Shown here: positions 18,612 to 56,661 of the stretch, in pieces
Position numbering within the stretch: the first letter of the stretch is position 1
Layout of the letters: every line of letters begins with the position of its first letter
DNA from: Amaurobius ferox
Lineage: Eukaryota; Arthropoda; Arachnida; Araneae; Amaurobiidae
DNA length: 64,000 bases
Reading direction: 5' to 3'
NCBI GenBank assembly: GCA_951213105.1
Contig: OX578144.1
Coordinates: forward strand, 80,058,801 to 80,122,800
The notes under the pieces: generated by a model
Databases searched by the model: none
What the model was told of the DNA's origin: nothing
Seen by the model: only the letters and a program-made list of their open reading frames with translations
Made by a program: the position numbers and the translations under genes

Positions 18612-18960
18612 ATATATATTTTTTTCCAATGGCCAGGCATTGACTCTTTCATCTTCGCCTATGCATCGGCCAGAACAGTGAACCTCTTAGCCGGCAAAGA
18701 AGTTGCCCCAGCGCACCAGTGGGTGTGGGAACACATTGCGCCCAACAACACAAACATCCATGTCTTACGAGGGACTCGAACCCACAACGTGGCGGCCGAT
18801 CAATCGCTGGACCGTTCGGCCACCACGTTGGCTGAAATGAGCCAACAGTACGCGGTGTTCCCAGGTGGTTACCCACCCAAGTACTAACCGCGCCCGATGC
18901 TGCTTAACTTCGGTGATCTAACGGGAACCGGTGTTTTCAGCACTGTACAGCCGTTGGCTC
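18612..18960 (-). mobile_element. 5S rRNA-tRNA chimeric SINE, intact insertion
   Basis: On the minus strand the element starts with a full-length 5S-like unit (18841-18958), followed by a tRNA-like unit: A box TGGCCGAACGG (18812-18822) and B box GGGTTCGAGTCCC (about 18771-18783). A body of about 150 bases follows, with an A-rich/(TA)n tail. The whole is flanked by a perfect 13-bp duplication TGTCTTGAAATAT (18599-18611 and 18961-18973). The duplication proves retroposition as one unit. The design parallels AmnSINE/SINE3-type elements known from vertebrates; that comparison is from family knowledge. Two complete Pol III promoters lie in tandem. Confidence 0.9.
18841..18958 (-). other. 5S rRNA-derived SINE head (full-length 5S-like)
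   Basis: 118 bases matching 5S rRNA from GCCAACG to CTGTTGGC. The internal control region is well preserved (ATCACCGAAGTTAAGCA and CGGGCGCGGTTAGTACTTGG). Differences from canonical 5S include GTTAGATC where most animals have GTCCGATC, and a changed stretch near positions 8-20. The target duplication of the enclosing SINE and the attached tRNA-like unit show that it is a SINE head and not a 5S gene. Confidence 0.85.
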
Positions 18961-24306: not shown

Positions 24307-24318
24307 TTTTAATTGTGT

Positions 24319-24378
24319 GAAAAACCCAGACCACACGACTGACCCGAAGGCTTACAATAACTATTTGTGTGGCCGGAA
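24319..24378 (-). mobile_element. 60-bp SINE-tail mini-element with target duplication
   Basis: Exactly 60 bases, flanked by perfect copies of TTTTAATTGTGT (24307-24318 and 24379-24390). On the minus strand it runs from TTCCGGCCACAC to GTCGTGTGGTCTGGGTTTTTC. The 5' stem CCACAC pairs with the 3' stem GTGTGG. It corresponds to the hairpin 3' module of SINE1 but lacks the tRNA head and promoter. The duplication shows that it was inserted as this short unit. Confidence 0.85.
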
Positions 24379-24659
24379 TTTTAATTGTGTTTTAATGTAT
24401 AGGTTTTTTATTTGTGCACTTTTCATGTGTGTTTGTAGGTATATGTGTTGTTTTTACTCTTCTCTGTAATTGGGCTTGTTGTGCCTGTTGAGATGTAAAT
24501 AAATAAAATAAGTTAACATAAAATGTTTAATAAATTAACATAACTTACTATCAGGACCTGCCTGTAGGATGAGTTACTAAAGTAAAGATCACACTCCCAT
24601 CATAGATAACAGCATCCATAGACTAGTTTTAGACTTATATTTTGGGAAAGAAAAGCAGA

Positions 24660-26611: not shown

Positions 26612-27486
26612 TCAGACTGAAAGTTCTCTTCCACTCAAATACAAGTCGTAACACTCAGTTACGGTTATGCCGTAAAATTTGCATAAAATGTCACAGAGAA
26701 AACGTAGAGGGTAACCTATTTCGAATGCTTCTTTTAGATAGCCCAGATCACTTATATAACGATTTTCAACACTGCTATTTAAACGTTTGCTTCTTGTTAA
26801 AAAATTTATAATAATGTTCCTAAAAGCATTTCTATGCAGACAAGAATGCCAATTAATAATGTAATTTATTTTAAAATTAAATGCTTTTCTTTTATCATAT
26901 AATTTAAAATCTACTTTACCATTAGAAAGTTTATATAATGTTAAATCTAAAAAATTAATACTATTATCAATGTTACGGGAAGTTTCTGTTAATGTCAAAT
27001 TTGAAGGAAAAAAAGTAAAATCTAAGTGATCCCGGTCATCGTGGCATGCATATAATATGTCATCCACATAACGTATGTATACAATCTCGTTTACAATATG
27101 AGTTCCCTCCTCGTATTTGTTCAAGTATATATCAGCCAGAATAGATGAATAAGCACCCCCCATCGGAATTCCATTACGCTGTCTGTAGAAATCAGTTCCA
27201 TCATAAAGCACAGTTTCAAACAAGACCATTTCGATTAGACATTTGTATAGAAGTTGTTTAATGAGGTTTTGCATCTCATACTTATCATACATCTCCATCA
27301 ATATGTGAAACAGATCATTTATATCTATATTGCAAAAAAGGTCATTGAAATCACAACTCCTATACTGTAAATCGTCAGATATGTCTTTAAGTTTTTTTAT
27401 TTTTTTTATTTGTGTTGTATAGAAATGTACTTGTTTGAGCAGCTTGGCGCCTTTGGGTATATTTTCAGTTGTTAGTTTTAGATGAG
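26612..27486 (-). pseudogene. Penelope-like element reverse transcriptase (5'-truncated copy)
   Basis: A continuous frame with the catalytic reverse transcriptase motifs: motif A in SCDFNDLFCNI, motif B in NGIPMGGAYSSILADIYL, motif C in YIRYVDDIL (catalytic YVDD intact), motif D/E region SINFLDLTL, then a thumb-like stretch WHSCLHRNAFRNI. RYVDD, PMGG, NFLDL and the histidine-containing thumb stretch are typical of Penelope-like elements. The frame is open upstream of the first ATG to about 27486, where it meets a (TA)n tract, so the N-terminal part is missing. No GIY-YIG nuclease follows the stop. It is homologous to 49228-50174 but clearly diverged from it. Confidence 0.85.
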
Positions 27487-27493
27487 ATAAATG

Positions 27494-28359: not shown

Positions 28360-29118
28360 ACTTTCCCTGCAATACATGGTAATGTATAGGGAAAGTATTG
28401 GAATCATGCCGAAAATCACAACTCGAGTTTTCGACGGATCTACACGTTTCGAGACCTCTAGAATACGAAAAAACTATTTTTAGCGTGACGTCTGTGTGTG
28501 TGTCTGTGTGTCTGTCTGTCTGTGCAGATTTTGTATCCACTCTAACTAAAAAACTAATGGACCGAATTTCACAAAATTTGGTAGGTAAGTTACTTGTGAG
28601 CGAGTCTGGTGCTGATTAGTTTTGGGTACGATTCGGAATTAAAGAACCCGCCTTTTTTTGCGAAATGGCCCGCAAAAACTTGTATCCACTCTAACTGAAA
28701 AACTGATGGACCGAATTTCACAAAATTCGGTAGATGAGTCACTTGTGGGCTACCTTGGTGCTGATTAGATTTTGGTACGATTCGGAAAAAAATGACCTGC
28801 CTTTTTTTGCAAAATGGCCCGCAAAAATCGTCCAAATCTAAACTAATGAACTGGGTATACTCAAATATATCCATTAAATGCTGATTTAATACGTAATTTT
28901 TAACGAGGAAAAGAATAAGACCAACCCCATTACACTAGGACTAGCTGTTCTCGAGATATTTTAGTTTTTCGTACTTTCCCTACGCCACCTTTGAAAATAA
29001 GCCCGGTTACCGAATGAGAACGAAAATTGAATTAAAAGTGAAATAAATTTAGTTAAAATAAAGAGAACGTTAATATAAGTCTGCAGGGAAAGTCATGTGC
29101 TGCCCACATCAGACTTTT
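28360..29118 (+). mobile_element. Helentron-like element, family A (copy 3)
   Basis: The cleanest copy. Its start hairpin is ACTTTCCCTGCA / AGGGAAAGT, followed by CTCGAGTTTTCGACGG and a GTCTGTGTGTCTGTCTGTCTGTG tract (about 28490-28526). Two tandem units of 149 bp follow (TGTATCCACT at 28532 and 28681). The 3' end is CTGCAGGGAAAGTCATGTGCTGCCCACATC. The outer TTTCCCTGCA and TGCAGGGAAA are exact inverse copies. Confidence 0.8.
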
Positions 29119-29166: not shown

Positions 29167-29923
29167 ACTTTCCCTGCAATACTTGGTAATGTATAGGGAA
29201 AGTATTGGAATCATGTCGAAAATCGCAACTCGAGTTTTCGACGGATCTACACGTTTCGAGACCTCTAGAACACGAAAAAACTATTTTTAGCGTGACGTCT
29301 GTGTGTGTGTCTGTGTGTCTGTCTGTGCAGATTTTGTATCCACTCTAACTAAAGAACTAATTGACCAAATATCAGAAAATTTGGTAGGTAATTCACTTGT
29401 GAGAGAATCTGGTGCTGATTAGTTTTGGGTATGATTTGGGATAAAAGAACTCGCCTTTTTTTGCGAAATGTCCCGCAAAAGCTGGTATCCACTCTAGCTA
29501 AAAATCTAATGGACCGAATTTCACAAAATTTGATAGATAAGTTGCTTGTGGATCTCGCTGGTGCTGATTAGATTTTGGTATGATTTGGAAAAAAATAACG
29601 TGCCTTTTTTTGCAAAATGGCCCGCAAAAATCGCCAAAATCTAAAATAAAAAACTGCGTATGCTGAAATATATCCATTAAATGCTTGTTTAATACGTAAT
29701 GTTTAACGAAGAAAAGAATAAGACCAACCCCATTACACTAGCACTAGCCGTTCTCGAGATATTTTCGTTTTTTCATTTTTCTCTACGCCACCTTTGAAAA
29801 TGAGTCCAGTTACCAAATGAGAACGAAAATTGAATTAATAGTGAATTAAATTTAATTAAAATAAAGAGAATGCGTGTATAAGTCTGCAAGGAAAGTCATA
29901 TGCTGCCCACATCAGATTTTTTT
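29167..29923 (+). mobile_element. Helentron-like element, family A (copy 4), tandem to copy 3
   Basis: Same orientation, same two-unit structure and almost the same length as copy 3, starting only about 50 bases after it. It ends with CTGCAAGGAAAGTCATATGCTGCCC. High similarity suggests either two insertions or a local tandem duplication. Confidence 0.8.
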
Positions 29924-31374: not shown

Positions 31375-31423
31375 CGAAAACTCAGACCACCCGACTCGCC
31401 CTAGGGCACGAGCAGCAACTTGT
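31375..31423 (-). repeat. SINE-tail fragment, 5' part replaced
   Basis: On the minus strand it reads AAACAAGTTGCTGCTCG...GAGTCGGGTGGTCTGAGTTTTCGAC, the hairpin module without its 5' stem. The missing arm is exactly where the long palindrome begins. Confidence 0.6.
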
Positions 31424-31863
31424 TTACAATTTGGGGATTGGAGAGCGCCCGCTAGCAGAAAGTATAAAGAACAGTTATTATAAAGAACAGTTAGTATAAA
31501 GAAAATGAGAAAACAATTATGTTATTGAGAATCTATACCATACAGTTGAGTGAGACTGTTTGACTAAACGACATGAAATACACAGTGTACTGTGTACAGT
31601 GTACACATGTAATGTGTACATGTACACAGTACACTGTATGGTTTCATGTTACACATGAAATGTACAGTGTACAGTGTACACAGTACACTGTGTATTTCAT
31701 GTCGTTTAGTCAATCAGTCTCACTCAACTGTATGGTATAGATTCTCAATAACATAATTGTTTTCTCGTTTTCTTTACACTAGTTGTTCTTTATAATAGCT
31801 GTTCTTTATACTTTCTACTAGCGGGCACTTTCCAACCCCCCCCCCCCCCAAATCGTAAACAAT
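31424..31863. repeat. Long near-perfect inverted repeat (about 190-bp arms)
   Basis: The left arm (about 31424-31612) and right arm (about 31665-31863) are reverse complements with few differences. They include TATAAAGAACAG / CTGTTCTTTATA, GAGAATCTATACCATACAG and its inverse, and ACGACATGAAATACACAG and its inverse. The centre is made of GTACAC/GTGTACA runs. It could form a large cruciform or a foldback transcript. Right end: a poly-C run next to AAATCGTAAACAA mirrors the left TTGTTTACAATTTGGGG. Confidence 0.9.
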
Positions 31864-32969: not shown

Positions 32970-34300
32970 TTACATTCCGTACATAGGTAGTATAATATAT
33001 AGGGTAGTATAAGTACTGTGATGGGGTCGAAAATTCGAATTAGATTTTGCGATGGAAGAGCACGTTTTAAGCATTCCTAAACTCGAATCGAACGTTTTTG
33101 AAGTAGTGTGTGTGTGTGTGTGTGTGTGTGTTAGTGTGTGTGTGTGTGTGTTAGCGTTAGTGTGTGTGTGTTAGTGTGTGTGTGTTAGTGTTAGTGTGTG
33201 TGTGTTAGTGTTAGTGTGTGTGTGTTAGTGTTAGTGTGTGTGTGTTAGTGTGTTAGTGTTAGTGTGTGTTGTTGTTGTTGAGACCCAGACCGTCCGACCT
33301 ACCAGAAAGGTGTAAGGTAACTGTTTGGACGGCCGGGAAGTGCCACCCAATTTAGACCGGAACCCAGTGGGGGAGGCATCCACAGGGACCGTTCCCTCCT
33401 TCCCCTACCACCAACCTCTCGGAAGGACTTACGGACCCACATGTTTAACGTGATCGTACTCCGCGTGAACACAGCGGCAGTTTTGGCAGTGGCTGGAATC
33501 GAACCCGGGCCTACCGAGTGCAACTCCAGCGCGTAACCAATGGGCTACCGCGCCCAGTGTTAGTGTGTGTGTGAGTGTGAAAGCAATATCTCAAAAACGA
33601 ATGAAGCGTTTCGAAAATAATTTGGTATGATACTACAATCATTGAATTTTTGAACTATATTGATTTTATACTCAATTAAATGTTTAAAAGTCTCCTCAAT
33701 TTGTTAAAGAATTTTTTATCACGTCATAAACAATTCAGGACCTTTAATAGTGATACATAAATATTCATTTCAGACGTAATTTTTCTCGAAATGAATGACA
33801 CAAACTGTACAATGCTAGAATGTACCCTTCTCGAGATATTGCTCATTTAAAAAAAATTATACTTATTAAAAAATTGTATAAAATTACAAAGTTGTTAGTA
33901 TCATGAAATACGTTCACTTTTCAGATGCAATATCAAGCAAAAAATCTGTTAGCATCATTTTCGAGGATCTAGTTTGTTCCATTCACCAGATAGGATATTT
34001 TTTGTAATAGTTTTATGTTTTGACGCACAAGAATTCGCCAATAGTCATTTATTTCACGCGATATTAATTAAATGTGAATTGTATTGTGATGAGTCATCGC
34101 ACGAGATATTTGGTTGGCCCGAGAGTGATTCTATTTGGATTAAAAAGCTGCCAAAAGCGCCAAATTTAAATTTATGTGGAATTAAATCAATGCCAAAACG
34201 TCGAGCCGTGGATCTTGCGCCTCATAATTTCGCTGTGAAAGAAGTAAAGTAAGCATTATGTAGGGAATGTCATGTGCGGCTCACATCAGATTTTTTTTTA
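32970..34300 (+). mobile_element. Helentron-like element, family B (copy 2), with nested SINE
   Basis: Starts with ACATTCCGTACATAGG and contains GGGGTCGAAAATTCGAATT and GAGCACGTTTTAAGC. It then carries a long interrupted (GT)n/GTTAGT microsatellite (33100-33270). It ends with TATGTAGGGAATGTCATGTGC and the closing stem-loop near 34290. Start (ACATTCC) and end (GGAATGT) share the same unusual base, unlike ACTTTCC in the other copies. A SINE lies inside the microsatellite. The 92-codon frame at 33974-34252 is inside the element and has no recognised domain. Confidence 0.65.
33270..33555 (-). mobile_element. tRNA-derived SINE1 inserted in a microsatellite
   Basis: Full-length copy on the minus strand: A box TAGCCCATTGG, B box GGTTCGATTCC, body and 3' hairpin CCGTCC...GGACGG with CTGGGTCTC(AAC)n. 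It is flanked by AGTGTTAGTGTGTGT on both sides (33255-33269 and 33556-33570). The flank is itself a repeat, so this duplication is weaker proof than elsewhere. Confidence 0.88.
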
Positions 34301-43951: not shown

Positions 43952-45017
43952 GGACCAGTTTCGTGCTTACTATTAACTCGTCAGTATGGAGTAGTAGATA
44001 TATGCAATGGCAGTAAAAACAAAGTTGCTATTTGCCACCATTTTGCGAATTTTTATGGAAACCTGGAAACCTTCTATTCAATTCTGACGAGTGCATAATA
44101 ATCACGAAACGGGTCAATGGATGCTATCAGATGAATGCAATAGAAAGATAAGATCAATGGAAGGTCAGTGGATGCAATAGAAGTGTGACCTTAAGTTTTG
44201 AAACATTCAGAAATAACGAAAACTCGGGCGAATTCTGACTTTGACTTCTGAGTCACAACTTTTAAACTAATTCGAATTAAAATAAATAAATAAATAAATA
44301 AACTTGACAACGTCTGTCGTCCCAAGAGTTCAGCTACCCCTGTACTGAAGTCCAAAGTTTCGATTTTCCTTTGCGGAAAAAGCATACATAGAAACATCTT
44401 CTTTTATTATGTAAGAAGGTTTTTATGTAGTTTGTTATAGTAAAAATCATATTAATTTCTTATTTTATCTTTGCCTATTCCACAATATATTCAATTTCCA
44501 ATTCTAAAGCGCAAGATATGTAAAATTTAACTATCTGGAGTCGGTCATTTTTATTTTGGCATGTCTATGTATGACTATGTATGTTGTCTTTCCATGTCTA
44601 TGTATATATATTGTCTATGTATTCTTATGTGCATTGTTATTTCTGCGTTTTTTCCTGGCCGTTCCTTGTAACTGCTCTACACACTTTGGGCGAACCGCAC
44701 GACCTGGGTAATAAATAATAATAAAAAAATTACCTACTTTGCCTATGATTAAAAATGGCCTTGAACATACGATGATTGGAAATTAAATATTGTTTTACAT
44801 ACCGCAGTTTCCATGTTAAAAAACTATAAAATGTGAGCCATTTTAATGATTATATTTGAAACGTCTTTTTTATATTCAGAACTTTTGTTTTAAGTGTGTA
44901 GACATTACTCAAAAATCTCCAAGAGTTGGTGATTGGGCATTTATTCAAAATTTTCACTTATTGCAGTAACAGTAATTTATGCAATCTTAAGTTTGAAAAA
45001 TTAAGGGGTGTATTTGC
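43952..45017. other. No gene seen; TGTCTATGTA-rich stretch
   Basis: At 44560-44640 short TGTCTATGTAT repeats are followed by CTGGCCGTTCC...GACCTGGGT and (AATAA)n. This vaguely resembles a SINE-tail module with a different tail, but I do not count it as a copy. Confidence 0.4.
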
Positions 45018-45033
45018 ACACACCCTACGCCAC

Positions 45034-45089
45034 TACAGTTACCTTACACCTTTCTGGTAGGTCGGACGGTCTGGGTCTCAACAACAACA
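45034..45089 (+). mobile_element. 5'-truncated SINE1 tail (56 bp) with 16-bp target duplication
   Basis: Holds only the last part of SINE1 (TACAGTTACC...GGTCGGACGGTCTGGGTCTC and CAA repeats). Perfect copies ACACACCCTACGCCAC flank it (45018-45033 and 45090-45105). The right flank overlaps the target site of the next insertion. Confidence 0.88.
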
Positions 45090-45109
45090 ACACACCCTAC
45101 GCCACGTCA

Positions 45110-45138
45110 GGGTGAGTTGAGTGGTCTGGGTTTTCGAC
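45110..45138 (+). mobile_element. 29-bp SINE-tail insertion with 11-bp target duplication
   Basis: GGGTGAGTTGAGTGGTCTGG and TTTTCGAC form a 29-base insert between perfect ACGCCACGTCA copies (45099-45109 and 45139-45149). It equals the final 3' part of the GAGTGG-type tail module. An extremely 5'-truncated retroposition event is the simplest reading. Confidence 0.75.
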
Positions 45139-45149
45139 ACGCCACGTCA

Positions 45150-47068: not shown

Positions 47069-47081
47069 AAATGGTCCGTGT

Positions 47082-47141
47082 TGAAGACCCAGACCGTCCG
47101 ACTCGTCCAGAGGACTTAGAGTAACTAGTTGGACGGCCGGC
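47082..47141 (-). mobile_element. 60-bp SINE-tail mini-element with 13-bp target duplication
   Basis: Exactly 60 bases between perfect AAATGGTCCGTGT copies (47069-47081 and 47142-47154). On the minus strand it begins GCCGGCCGTCC and ends GGACGGTCTGGGTCTTCA. The outer stem CCGTCC/GGACGG and inner stem ACTC..GTCC/GGACGAGT form a two-tier hairpin. No tRNA head. Confidence 0.9.
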
Positions 47142-47154
47142 AAATGGTCCGTGT

Positions 47155-47622: not shown

Positions 47623-47682
47623 TTGAAGACCCAGACCGACCGACTCGTCAACAAGGACATGAGTAGCCATTTGGTCGGCCGG
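47623..47682 (-). mobile_element. 60-bp SINE-tail mini-element (no duplication visible)
   Basis: On the minus strand CCGGCCGACCAAATGGC...GAGTCGGTCGGTCTGGGTCTTCAA. The stem CCGACC/GGTCGG differs from the 47082 copy at two paired positions, so pairing is kept. Flanks do not show a target duplication. Confidence 0.75.
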
Positions 47683-48613: not shown

Positions 48614-49231
48614 GCCAGCACTGACTGTAGCCAACCTCCGGAGTGATAATCAAAATTATCACAAGACCTTTTATAAAGGAAAGTGATATTAAAAAGTATT
48701 GGTCCAAGCCTCAGAGACAGCTAAGTTCATGCCTATGCTTCCTCTTTATAACATCAAAACAATCATATTCAGCAGTTTAGATGTTTGTGATGTCATTACT
48801 CTCAAAGACGTATAATCAATGTTCATAATGACCTCAAATATTCACACAAACTTAACCCATATTTTTCATTTTTTCCGTAGTAATTTTTGATGTAATGGAT
48901 CATAAATTGCATTGGATATTTTTGCCTGAATGCCTGTTGTAAGAATTTTTTGTTACTTTCCAATCTGGTGACGTCACTGCTCACAATTCTTTTTGTTCTC
49001 GCTAGACCACCAATAAATATATTCCTAAATATATTCAAGTGTAAATTAGATGACCAATGCATGATTCCTGTTGCAGGAATATTATAAGTTATTCTTTTAT
49101 CATACATATAGAATGACAATTTATTATGGCTGAAATCAATACTGAGATCTAGAAAATTTACGACATTATTCTGTGCTGGTGGATTTTCTTCCAATATTAA
49201 ATTTGAGTGATAAAATTCAAAATTCATTTGG
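48614..49231 (-). pseudogene. Penelope-type reverse transcriptase, C-terminal inverted copy
   Basis: On the minus strand it encodes the last 134 codons of the reverse transcriptase (NFEFYHSNLILEENPPAQN to CEYLRSL and stop), plus about 210 bases of 3' untranslated sequence. It is nearly identical to the corresponding part of the plus-strand copy (49810-50430). The junction with the plus copy is at about 49231, giving a head-to-head pair. Its frame ends in a natural stop with no GIY-YIG nuclease behind it. Confidence 0.85.
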
Positions 49232-50174
49232 AATTAAGTACACAGAAAGAATAAAATACCCATATTTAATAAATATACCCAAGCTTCATAAAACTCCAAA
49301 AAGCTTCAGACCAGTAACAGTTGGATTCAAAACTTATCTCACTAAAGCTAACAAATTGCTTCTTGCAATATTGAAACTTATATTAAAGAAAATTAAAGAT
49401 CGGGGATTTTATATTGTTGGGAACAGCTACGAGGTCATAGAGATCATGAGGAATCATCAAACAAAATTATTTTTCAGAACCTATGATTTTCAAGAGCTAT
49501 TTAACAATATTGAACTCAAGGTATTATACCGAATACTGAACTTGTTGTACGGGGAATTTGAAATGCAAAAATATATAGAAATCAACAAATATAGATCTCT
49601 GATTAAGATAATTATAGAAGAAAACTACCTATATAACGGTCTGAATTTCTATAAGCAAATCAAAGGCATCCCCATGGATGGGGGATGCTCGTCAATTTTA
49701 GCAGACATCTATCTTGATCATTTTGAAAAAATGTCCCATATTAACAATGAAATAATTTACATACGTTACGTTGATGATTTGTTAATAGGTTATAAAAACG
49801 AAAGTTTTCAAATGAATTTTGAATTTTATCACTCAAATTTAATATTGGAAGAAAATCCACCAACACAGAATAATGTCGTAAATTTTCTAGATCTCAGTAT
49901 TGATTTCAGCCATAATATACTGTCATTCTATATATATTATAAAAGAATAACTTATAATATTCCTACAACAAGAATCATGCATTGGACATCTAATTTACAC
50001 TTGAATATATTTAAGAATGTATTTATTGGTGGTCTAGCGAGAACAAAAAGAATTGTAAGCAGTGACGACACCAGATTGGAAAGTGACAAAAAATTCTTAC
50101 AACAGGCATTCAGGAAAAGATATCCAATGCAATTTATGATCTATTACATCAAAAATTACTACAGAAAAAAATGA
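49228..50174 (+). pseudogene. Penelope-like element reverse transcriptase (N-truncated)
   Basis: An open frame of about 315 codons with motifs in order: IPKLHKTPKSFRPVT (RT1), TYDFQELFNNIE (motif A), GIPMDGGCSSILADIYL (B), YIRYVDDLL (C), NNVVNFLDLSI (D/E region) and a thumb stretch. Catalytic YVDD is intact. Upstream of 49228 lies the inverted copy, so the N-terminal part is lost. The frame ends at 50174 in a variant end (YYRKK), about 11 codons before the stop of the inverted copy, so a small change altered the terminus. No nuclease follows. Related to but distinct from the 26.6-kb copy. Confidence 0.88.
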
Positions 50175-52597: not shown

Positions 52598-52944
52598 ACG
52601 TCGTTAGATCACCGAAGTCAAGCAGCATCGGGCGCGGTTAGTACTTGGGTGGGTGACCATCTAGGAACACCGCGTGCTATTGGCAGCTTTCGGGCACGGT
52701 AGCCCGGTGGTTTGCGCGCTGGATTTGCACGCTGCCACAACTGCCGCCGTGTTCATGCGGAGTACGATCACGTTAAACATGTGGGTCCGTAAGTCCTTCC
52801 GAGAGGTTGGTGGTAGGGGAAGGAGGGTACGGTCCCTGTGGATGCCTCCCCCACTGGGTTCCGGTCTAAATTGGGTGGCATTTCCCGGCCGTCCAAACAT
52901 TTACCTTACACCTTTGTGGTAGGTCGGACGGTCTGGGTCTCAAC
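52598..52944 (+). mobile_element. 5S-tRNA chimeric SINE: truncated 5S head joined to SINE1
   Basis: A 5'-truncated 5S-like unit (GTTAGATCACCGAAGTC to GTGCTATTGGC, about 52600-52685) is followed after about nine bases by a SINE1 body. The body has an A box (GTAGCCCGGTGG), a deletion that removes the B box, and the 3' hairpin ending CTGGGTCTCAAC. An imperfect flank pair (ACACTTAAACCACGCC on the left, ACACTTATAGCCACGCC on the right) suggests that 5S and SINE1 were inserted together. The 5S part shares GTTAGATC and CATCGGGCG with the 18.6-kb chimera, although the tRNA-derived bodies differ. Confidence 0.8.
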
Positions 52945-52959
52945 AACACTTATAGCCAC

Positions 52960-53018
52960 GCCGGCCACTCAAACAGCTGCTGTAAGCCCTCTGGGTCAGT
53001 CGAGTGGTTTGGGTCTGA
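52960..53018 (+). mobile_element. 59-bp SINE-tail mini-element with 15-bp target duplication
   Basis: GCCGGCCACTC...GAGTGGTTTGGGTCTGA between perfect AACACTTATAGCCAC copies (52945-52959 and 53019-53033). The stem CCACTC/GAGTGG is intact. The left target copy is also the right flank of the preceding SINE. Confidence 0.9.
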
Positions 53019-53065
53019 AACACTTATAGCCACATAATACTATATTAGTCTGTACTTATAGCCAT

Positions 53066-53132
53066 CTCTTCCGGCCACTCAAACAGCTGCTGTAAGCCCT
53101 ATAGGGCTAGTCAAATGGTCTGGGTCTTCAAC
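53066..53132 (+). mobile_element. 67-bp SINE-tail mini-element with 12-bp target duplication
   Basis: Five extra bases, then CCGGCCACTC...TGGTCTGGGTCTTCAAC between perfect ACTTATAGCCAT copies (53054-53065 and 53133-53144). The outer stem is partly decayed on the 3' side (AAATGG against CCACTC). Confidence 0.85.
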
Positions 53133-53141
53133 ACTTATAGC

Positions 53142-53395
53142 CATGGGTGCCCATAGGGGTGTTCAAAGTCACAAATGTAGGTATCAAACTATAGGTATCA
53201 AACTATAATATATTGTACTTCTCATCCATGCGTTTACCCTCTGGAAAATGTTCTATGGGCACCCATAGGGGAGCACGAGGGGGCACTTTCGCTCCCTCGA
53301 ACGTTCAAGGTCAAAAATGTAGGTATTAAGTTAATAGGTATTTACCTCCCATCCTTGAGTTCGGCTATCTCAGGAATAAGTTTTATGGGCGCCTT
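53142..53395 (+). repeat. Short TIR element, family F (two tandem copies)
   Basis: Copy 3 starts CATGGGTGCCCATAG (53142-53156) and ends CTATGGGCACCCATAG (53253-53268), which also serves as the start of copy 4. Copy 4 ends with TTTTATGGGCGCC near 53393. The shared terminus makes the pair look like one insertion into the end of another. Confidence 0.65.
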
Positions 53396-53824: not shown

Positions 53825-53874
53825 GGAAACCCCAGGCCGTCCGACTCGTCCAGAGGACTTGAGTAACAATTTGG
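53825..53874 (-). repeat. SINE-tail fragment
   Basis: On the minus strand CCAAATTGTTACTCAAGTCC...GAGTCGGACGGCCTGGGGTTTC: the tail module lacking its 5' stem. No target duplication found. Confidence 0.6.
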
Positions 53875-53944
53875 AGTGTATTTTTTCGTCTAAATGTCGT
53901 GATATTATCCGTGAACTTCCTCTATACAATAGCATTAGAAAATA

Positions 53945-55776: not shown

Positions 55777-56525
55777 ACATTCCCTGCAAATACATGGTAA
55801 TGTATAGGAAAAGTATTGCAATCAGGCCAAAAATCGCAACTCGAGTTTTCGACGGATCTACACGTTTCGAGACCTCTAGAATACGAAAAAACTTTTTTTA
55901 GCATGACGTCTGTTTGTGTGTCTGTCTGTCTATGCAGATTTTGTATCCTCTCTAACTAAAAAACTAATTGACCGAATTTCATAAAATTTGGTAAGTCACT
56001 TGTGGGCGAATCTGGTGCTGATTGGTTTTGGATACGATTCAGGATAAAAGAACCCACCTTTTTTTGCGAAAAGGCCTGCAAAAGCCTGTATCCACTCTAG
56101 TTGAAAAACTAATGGACCAAATTTCACAAATTTCGGTAGATAAGTCACTTGTGGGTCACCCTGGTGCTGATTAGATTTTGGTATGATTCGAAAAAAAATA
56201 ACCTGCCTTTTTTTGCGAAATGGCCTGCTATCGTCAAAATCTAAAATAAAAAAATTCGTGTGCTCAAATATATCCATTAAATACTTGTTTTACACGTAAT
56301 TTTTAATGAAGAAAAGAATAAAACTAACCCCATTACACTAGGGCTAGCCGTTCTCGAGATATTTTAGTTTTTTCGTTTTTTTTCTACGCCACCTTAGAAA
56401 ATAAGTCTAGTTACCAAATGAGAATGAAAATTGAATTACAAGTGCTTTAAATTTAATTAAAATAAAGAGAACGTGAATATAAGTCTGCAGAGAAAGTTAT
56501 GTGCGGCCCACATCAAATTTTTTTT
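55777..56525 (+). mobile_element. Helentron-like element, family A (copy 5)
   Basis: Starts ACATTCCCTGCAAATACATGG, has CTCGAGTTTTCGACGG, a GTGTGTCTGTCTGTC tract and two tandem units of about 145 bp (TGTATCC at about 55942 and 56087). It ends CTGCAGAGAAAGTTATGTGCGG and the terminal stem-loop before a T run. Confidence 0.75.
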
Positions 56526-56661
56526 ATTCAAATGCATGAAGAATAAATAAATATATCCGAAAAACATACAGTTTTACAAATATTTCATTTCCATGGAAAT
56601 CAAAAATAATTTTGACAAGTGCATGCGGCATCAAGAAAAGACATACAAATCACAAATCAAT

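Follow-up and report, generated by a model that had tools for sequence, protein, structure and literature searches.

A unit of about 60 bp is discrete in this genome and its copies are near identical, as follows from 1505 exact copies of its internal core, from 18 of 19 starts at a common border, and from 41 units in which the hairpin preceding it in longer relatives has no match. We narrowly favor the view that this unit represents the recognition hairpin at the end of stringent-type LINE-like elements (hereafter HP2, the unit's own hairpin), copied alone in trans and bordered at the junction between HP2 and the hairpin directly upstream in longer relatives (HP1). This reading is proposed because related units end 3′ regions of 700–800 nt as the last of two hairpins.

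Start positions of the short inserts

In the 64-kb window (the whole stretch of DNA that was analysed), four short inserts had been predicted to lie between perfect target duplications, and all four do so, each flanked by exact copies of 12–15 bp. The 60-bp unit at 47082–47141 (minus strand; 52-nt core 47083–47134) belongs to family A, with stem arms GTCC/GGAC, and its 13-bp duplications at 47069–47081 and 47142–47154 read ACACGGACCATTT on the minus strand. Another 60-bp unit, of the family with arms ACAC/GTGT, occupies 24319–24378 (minus strand) between 12-bp duplications at 24307–24318 and 24379–24390. Two units of the ACTC/GAGT family lie close together on the plus strand, one of 59 bp at 52960–53018, directly behind a SINE (15-bp duplications at 52945–52959 and 53019–53033), and one of 67 bp at 53066–53132, with five additional nucleotides (CTCTT) ahead of CCGGCC (12-bp duplications at 53054–53065 and 53133–53144). 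Counted from the first C of CCGGCC, the four begin at −2, −1, −1, and −5, and the near-constant 5′ border originally claimed for them is thus present. For comparison, a comparable scan met an exact repeat of at least 12 bp at 0.16% of 5000 random places.

A profile search with nhmmer placed 13 tail-type copies above threshold in the window, four on headed SINEs and nine short. Exact duplications bound six of the nine short copies, and of these six, four start at the border and two inside the hairpin. Starts inside the hairpin are seen in a SINE-type tail fragment at 45034–45089 (plus strand; 16-bp duplications at 45018–45033 and 45090–45105) and in a 29-bp fragment at 45110–45138 (plus strand; 11-bp duplications at 45099–45109 and 45139–45149). 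The other three short copies have no duplication nearby: a 58-bp unit with stem arms GACC/GGTC at 47625–47682 (minus strand) and copies at ~31376–31430 and ~53826–53881. Long-range duplications were likewise absent for 47625–47682 and 53826–53881; the ~31.4-kb copy has a 15-nt match 241 and 295 nt upstream, within a palindromic repeat, and its duplication status is ambiguous.

We searched the window's own genome (3.565 Gb, 276 contigs) with an 86-bp query, which returned 1231 candidates; scoring 40 of these gave 43 matches, 34 of them 97–100% identical. All 20 places examined from this search hold the unit at 98–100% identity between exact duplications of 13–17 bp, with starts 0–10 nt ahead of CCGGCC. 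Since the 86-bp query contained the border, this set is biased, and the internal 52-nt core of the 47082–47141 unit was therefore searched instead: it has 1505 exact copies in the genome, its reversed control none. We read the first 21 of these 1505 places (contig 1; 20 stretches, with ~124 nt upstream), which were not chosen by their 5′ end. Duplications were present in 19 of the 21 units, 17 of them recognized in register by script, one (L065) by a wider scan and by eye, and one (L050) by eye, this last being read again because of a microsatellite. No duplication was present at the first unit of L063 or at the unit of L062, in which CCGGCC is missing as well.

Among the 19 duplication-bounded units, eight start at −1 to +1, ten at −4 to −6, and one at −12, which places 18 within −6 to +1 of CCGGCC (chance 2e-16 under uniform starts over 70 nt). 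Two stretches, L052 and L056, share 98% of 124 upstream nucleotides; if they represent one event, the count becomes 17 of 18. The additional letters of the ten units starting at −4 to −6 all end in CTTC, and the SINE and long relatives carry similar letters at the same position. Upstream of the 41 units in stretches L029–L068, HP1 gave no match better than E 0.33 (over 10–17 nt), and sequence common to units occurs there only in SINE tails (L030, L041, L052, L056) or beside other units (L034, L063). The young family is, in the sample read, almost only 58–65 bp long. No long copy of family A was present among the 41 units, 20 of which had been chosen with the border-containing query, and its parent therefore stays putative.

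With over a thousand exact cores and nearly all starts within −6 to +1, the original prediction of a discrete, tiny unit, apparently mobilized in trans, has held up, and starts scattered at random along the SINE, for which a genome-wide test had been proposed, are not the young family's pattern. An additional G before CCGGCC, seen in several of the first 20 matches, was considered as a cap mark and rejected: the G was already part of the query, and among the units not selected by their 5′ end the extra letters end in CTTC, consist of a single C, or are lacking. On contig C1 (64398056–64580561), fourteen exact cores form seven pairs, 82 bases apart within each pair, over ~180 kb, probably a duplicated block.

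The one common start that had been predicted holds for the young family but not across families. In a mixed-family set of 344 kb (28 stretches of 10 kb, L001–L028, plus the window), a profile search gave 52 matches at E up to 0.05. We read 23 short copies with duplications by hand; 12 start at the border (−7 to +1), eight inside the hairpin, and three upstream, at about −19, −35, and −58. This count leaves aside SINE-type tails running into the SINE core, tails without duplication (window 47.6, 31.4, and 53.8 kb; L001:4988), 3′-shortened tails (L008, L021), and weak matches (L019:4677, L023:404, L009:392, and window matches below the inclusion threshold), and it retains copies whose duplications are imperfect, repetitive, or short (L009:342, L009:4876, L012:1548, L012:8262, L003:9637). 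For L001:4988, a 17-nt match 1800 nt away lies in a SINE tail and was rejected as a duplication.

The eleven mixed-family copies that start inside the hairpin or upstream of it would fit ordinary 5′ truncation of a SINE or LINE at random points, the constant border in the window then being small-sample luck. Against this, 12 of the 23 starts fall within a stretch of nine positions, and in the young family 18 of 19 lie at the border; for the latter we reject random truncation, and as a general account we consider it very improbable. Border starts make up 10 of 15 in the non-SINE families vs 2 of 8 in SINE-type short copies, a contrast that is not significant on its own (Fisher p 0.09) and that hints that more than HP2 alone is needed to set the border. 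The remaining SINE-type tails extend into the SINE core through all sequence inspected, ~90 nt.

Target site and hairpin fold

Across 39 duplications, the insertion site is TTAC/ACAC (the slash marks the insertion point), with C at +2 in all 39, at −1 in 29, and at +4 in 30, and A at both +1 and +3 in 36 each; three of the 39 rows are out of register in the alignment. Further upstream, positions −9, −8, and −6 are A in 25, 20, and 25 of the 39. The duplications vary in length, with 13–18 bp in most rows and up to 25 in a microsatellite, and the unit's 3′ end is TTCA. The hairpin of the SINEs contains CTTACACC, and units have inserted at that very spot in the SINE tails of L030, L052, and L056.

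In several places, different tail-bearing copies stand in a row with the same target duplication between them, as serial insertions at one site: L003:9243–9999 running into the contiguous L026:1–60 (about seven, by eye), window 52945–53144 and 45018–45149, L009:4731–4938, L034, L035, and L047. Each insertion seems to recreate its own target.

A stem of ten pairs can form in the unit; CCGGCC and GGTCTGG close it, and it encloses a small inner hairpin. When copies were folded singly, most but not all returned this stem; those at 52961 and 53071 fold otherwise. The families carry different but matching stem arms (GTCC/GGAC, ACTC/GAGT, ACAC/GTGT, and GACC/GGTC), and over 18 aligned copies 91.9% of cells pair. 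We counted 22 double-change cells in the outer stem vs 7.7 in shuffles (none of 500 reached 22), a control that ignores relatedness among the 18 copies, and vs 0–1 in slid controls; the covariation score was 0.331 against a maximum of 0.061 in the latter. Within the unit stem, neither the number of pairs in which both partners change (matched or exceeded in 65 of 500 shuffles) nor that of further pair types (434 of 500) was remarkable. The outer stem is thus shown to be kept by compensatory changes, and the unit has a conserved 3′ stem-loop, as expected of a stringent-type LINE tail.

With arms that pair over ten base pairs, the unit might also be taken for a DNA-level, MITE-like element moved by a transposase. 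The duplications, however, lack the fixed length expected of MITEs, and their starts keep in register with a nick motif. The unit's 3′ end lies on the TTCA/ACAC side and is shared by the long copies; we give this explanation practically no weight.

Longer relatives and the origin of the border

The unit had been predicted to be a SINE tail, and this part of the claim did not stand: in longer relatives it is the last hairpin of a LINE-like 3′ region and follows directly on another one. A 122-nt query with this upstream hairpin, taken from L022, gave 81 candidates, and scoring 40 of these yielded 41 matches, of which one is the query itself, five extend far into the upstream part, and 35 have their start at query positions 51–60, the foot of HP2; these alignment ends mark where similarity stops, not where insertions end. 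Comparison of these five long copies (L069–L073) among themselves or with L022 shows ~80–380 nt of shared 3′ sequence, which ends with HP1, a short spacer, and HP2. HP1 pairs in 83.1% of cells, with weak covariation (5 double-change cells, a number reached in 7 of 500 shuffles; the score was reached in 8 of 500). Two of eight sequences folded singly (L071, L001) have nucleotides ahead of HP1 paired with nucleotides that follow HP2, a pairing by which a three-way junction would be closed. With a 550-nt query from L070, we obtained 852 candidates and, from 40 that were scored, 40 matches: four start at query position 27 or earlier (the query itself included; one ends at 385), 26 at 254–451, and ten at 479–485, again the HP2 foot.

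The 3′ region of the longer relatives measures ~700–800 nt and lies behind decayed coding pieces. Such pieces were read upstream of two long copies, which share 155 nt at 86% identity, including the sequence ...LKKEIHKI shortly before 3′ regions of 789 and 704 nt; upstream of these two copies, no reverse transcriptase was seen. We take the coding pieces to be ORF1 without ORF2, by their resemblance to Gag-like ORF1 ends. One copy, L074, has a single zinc knuckle upstream of the shared part (zf-CCHC, E 0.0015, 18.9 bits; Pfam cut-off 20.8), a match confined to that copy, and this might possibly be, instead of ORF1, the C-terminal knuckle of a frame bearing a reverse transcriptase. The HP2-type hairpin is common to the local SINEs and the longer LINE-like 3′ ends; the genome searches made found no reverse-transcriptase partner carrying the HP1–HP2 3′ end, and the RT-bearing carrier of these ends is putative.

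Open RVT_1 frames are present at 26612–27493 (minus strand), 49146–50174 (plus strand), and L015:7064–8173 (minus strand; just below the cut-off), and we assume from their appearance that they are Penelope-like. As donors of the tail they were rejected: over the window and L001–L028, the long 3′ regions match nothing inside such frames. An unnamed repeat, with copies 88–92% identical, lies at 28869–29118, 29672–29921, and 56272–56528 and recurs upstream in L072 and in L015. At ~44657–44712, a diverged hairpin tail that scores weakly (E 0.44, short of the threshold) is followed by AAT rather than CAA repeats; perhaps it belongs to a further LINE family whose 3′ hairpin is of this kind.

The border of the unit lies at the position where HP1 would end in the long relatives, and it therefore marks either a stop of the enzyme or an end of the RNA. 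Under the explanation that we narrowly favor, a LINE reverse transcriptase would recognize HP2, prime on the GTGT end of the nicked target, copy HP2, and cease at the HP1/HP2 junction, the most likely obstacle being HP1 or a protein bound there. Nearly every product would be one hairpin long because copying ends at that junction, and the unit would need no promoter of its own because transcription would come from the longer parent. A copying stop is modestly favored because HP1-bearing longer forms exist and because CTTC lies near the expected remnant of a stop at the HP1 foot. The starts, however, split into two groups (0 and −5), which a single stop does not directly predict.

In an equally workable variant, the template is a decay fragment ending at the HP1/HP2 junction: decay or cleavage of the RNA would leave a stable HP2 RNA of ~60–65 nt, with ends at CCTTC or CCGGCC, that is retroposed in trans. 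Sharp ends and the lack of HP1 from all 41 units agree with such processing, two end positions are expected from trimming down to a hairpin, and HP2 alone may suffice for recognition, given that the SINEs share it. On the other hand, the unit's ends adjoin HP1, where a copying stop would equally be predicted to put them, and we regard a processed template as possible but doubtful. A broader proposition, that the unit is a free-standing retroposon of ~60 nt, a single hairpin without promoter, head, or body that is sufficient for TPRT and is supplied as a processed RNA of ~60–65 nt, is a serious candidate to which we would assign somewhat less than an even chance.

By inspection, no promoter is visible in the ~60-base hairpin, and neither Rfam nor ARAGORN gives a tRNA in the window. 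These observations, together with near-identical copies and fixed ends, would also suit a dedicated small-RNA gene, namely a master locus with an external promoter whose copies are dead on arrival, like small-nuclear-RNA pseudogenes. Yet an origin from LINE 3′ ends is indicated by the several families with different compensated stems and by the long relatives, which have HP1 and a 3′ region, and we judge such a gene unlikely.

Local SINEs and comparison with known systems

The prediction of a SINE tail without a head is better worded as a relative of the local SINE tail: in the one pair compared, the two are 79% identical, and the SINE tail forms a related hairpin with the same kind of compensated stem. 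Hairpin tails of headed SINEs lie at 52885–52939 (plus strand; a relative of the unit from a different family, with a 5S-like part from ~52610 and a tRNA-like stretch at 52692–52722, by eye) and at 33282–33336 (minus strand; followed by CAA repeats, with a tRNA-like stretch at 33526–33555, by eye). The SINE at 52610–52942 thus begins 5S-like and continues tRNA-like, while in the minus-strand copies whose ends lie at 33282 and 7956 the tRNA-like head comes first (by eye). A full-length 5S rRNA match stands at 18840–18958 (minus strand; Rfam, 102.8 bits, E 2.2e-21).

These tRNA- or 5S-headed SINEs of the same genome share the related hairpin tail with the unit, and several of their copies have target sites starting with ACA. 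They differ in having a head and a core, and many copies extend far beyond the hairpin, whereas the unit is without these. The 19 fixed-start units begin at most 12 nt before CCGGCC, and there is therefore no room for a head. The unit thus falls outside the definition of a SINE for want of a head, and we place it among non-autonomous TPRT passengers.

We recognized no description of such a ~60-nt unit in the literature with a limited set of search terms, and each of three pattern scans of viral contigs for the unit or the SINE, from which records of its own genome were possibly excluded, gave 0 matches. Should the free-standing retroposon hold, we know of no smaller natural TPRT substrate with copy-number success of its own. 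The minimal RNA for a stringent LINE would then be isolated as one hairpin plus a few tail bases, and the different paired stems, the single border, and the one sharp target site amount to a ready substrate and target for TPRT in vitro. It would also bear on whether RNA structure or RNA ends determine the 5′ boundaries of truncated LINE copies. It would show, too, that headless inserts of ~60 bp, which in our judgement repeat annotation easily misses, can be numerous.

The poly(A) tail and TT/AAAA target of L1-type retropseudogenes are not found here, the unit ending in TTCA and inserting at TTAC/ACAC. HAL1 and HeT-A are gag-only non-autonomous LINEs. One long relative, a single decayed copy, resembles them in having a zinc-knuckle piece just before its 3′ region with no reverse transcriptase between; HeT-A is termed non-autonomous in one report (PMC3414825). 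According to another, RTE/Bov-B insertions are marked by a T stretch situated ~10 nt before the point where the duplication begins (PMC13295347). CAA-type 3′ repeats (here in the SINEs) and duplications beginning with A are likenesses, whereas the upstream stretch is A-rich here and the site differs from the RTE/Bov-B signature.

R2 and R2/R1 SIDEs are described, in the same report that mentions HeT-A, as non-autonomous elements without pol III transcription that use TPRT via their 3′ end; they retain a ribozyme at the 5′ end, which releases them from a co-transcript, and a SIDE characterized there is 529 bp long (PMC3414825). The present unit has ~60 nt and no such 5′ ribozyme: no ribozyme family was reported in the window, where 5S rRNA was the only Rfam match at gathering thresholds.

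A close comparison is with stringent-type LINE/SINE pairs (UnaL2, ZfL2-1, and ZfL2-2), in which a common 3′ stem-loop is needed for retrotransposition and is bound by the LINE protein (PMC4176376). As in those pairs, a 3′ stem-loop is common to LINE-like and SINE sequences here. The stem-loop of UnaL2 and ZfL2 moves within a LINE or a SINE, whereas here the hairpin alone is the insert, in over a thousand copies.
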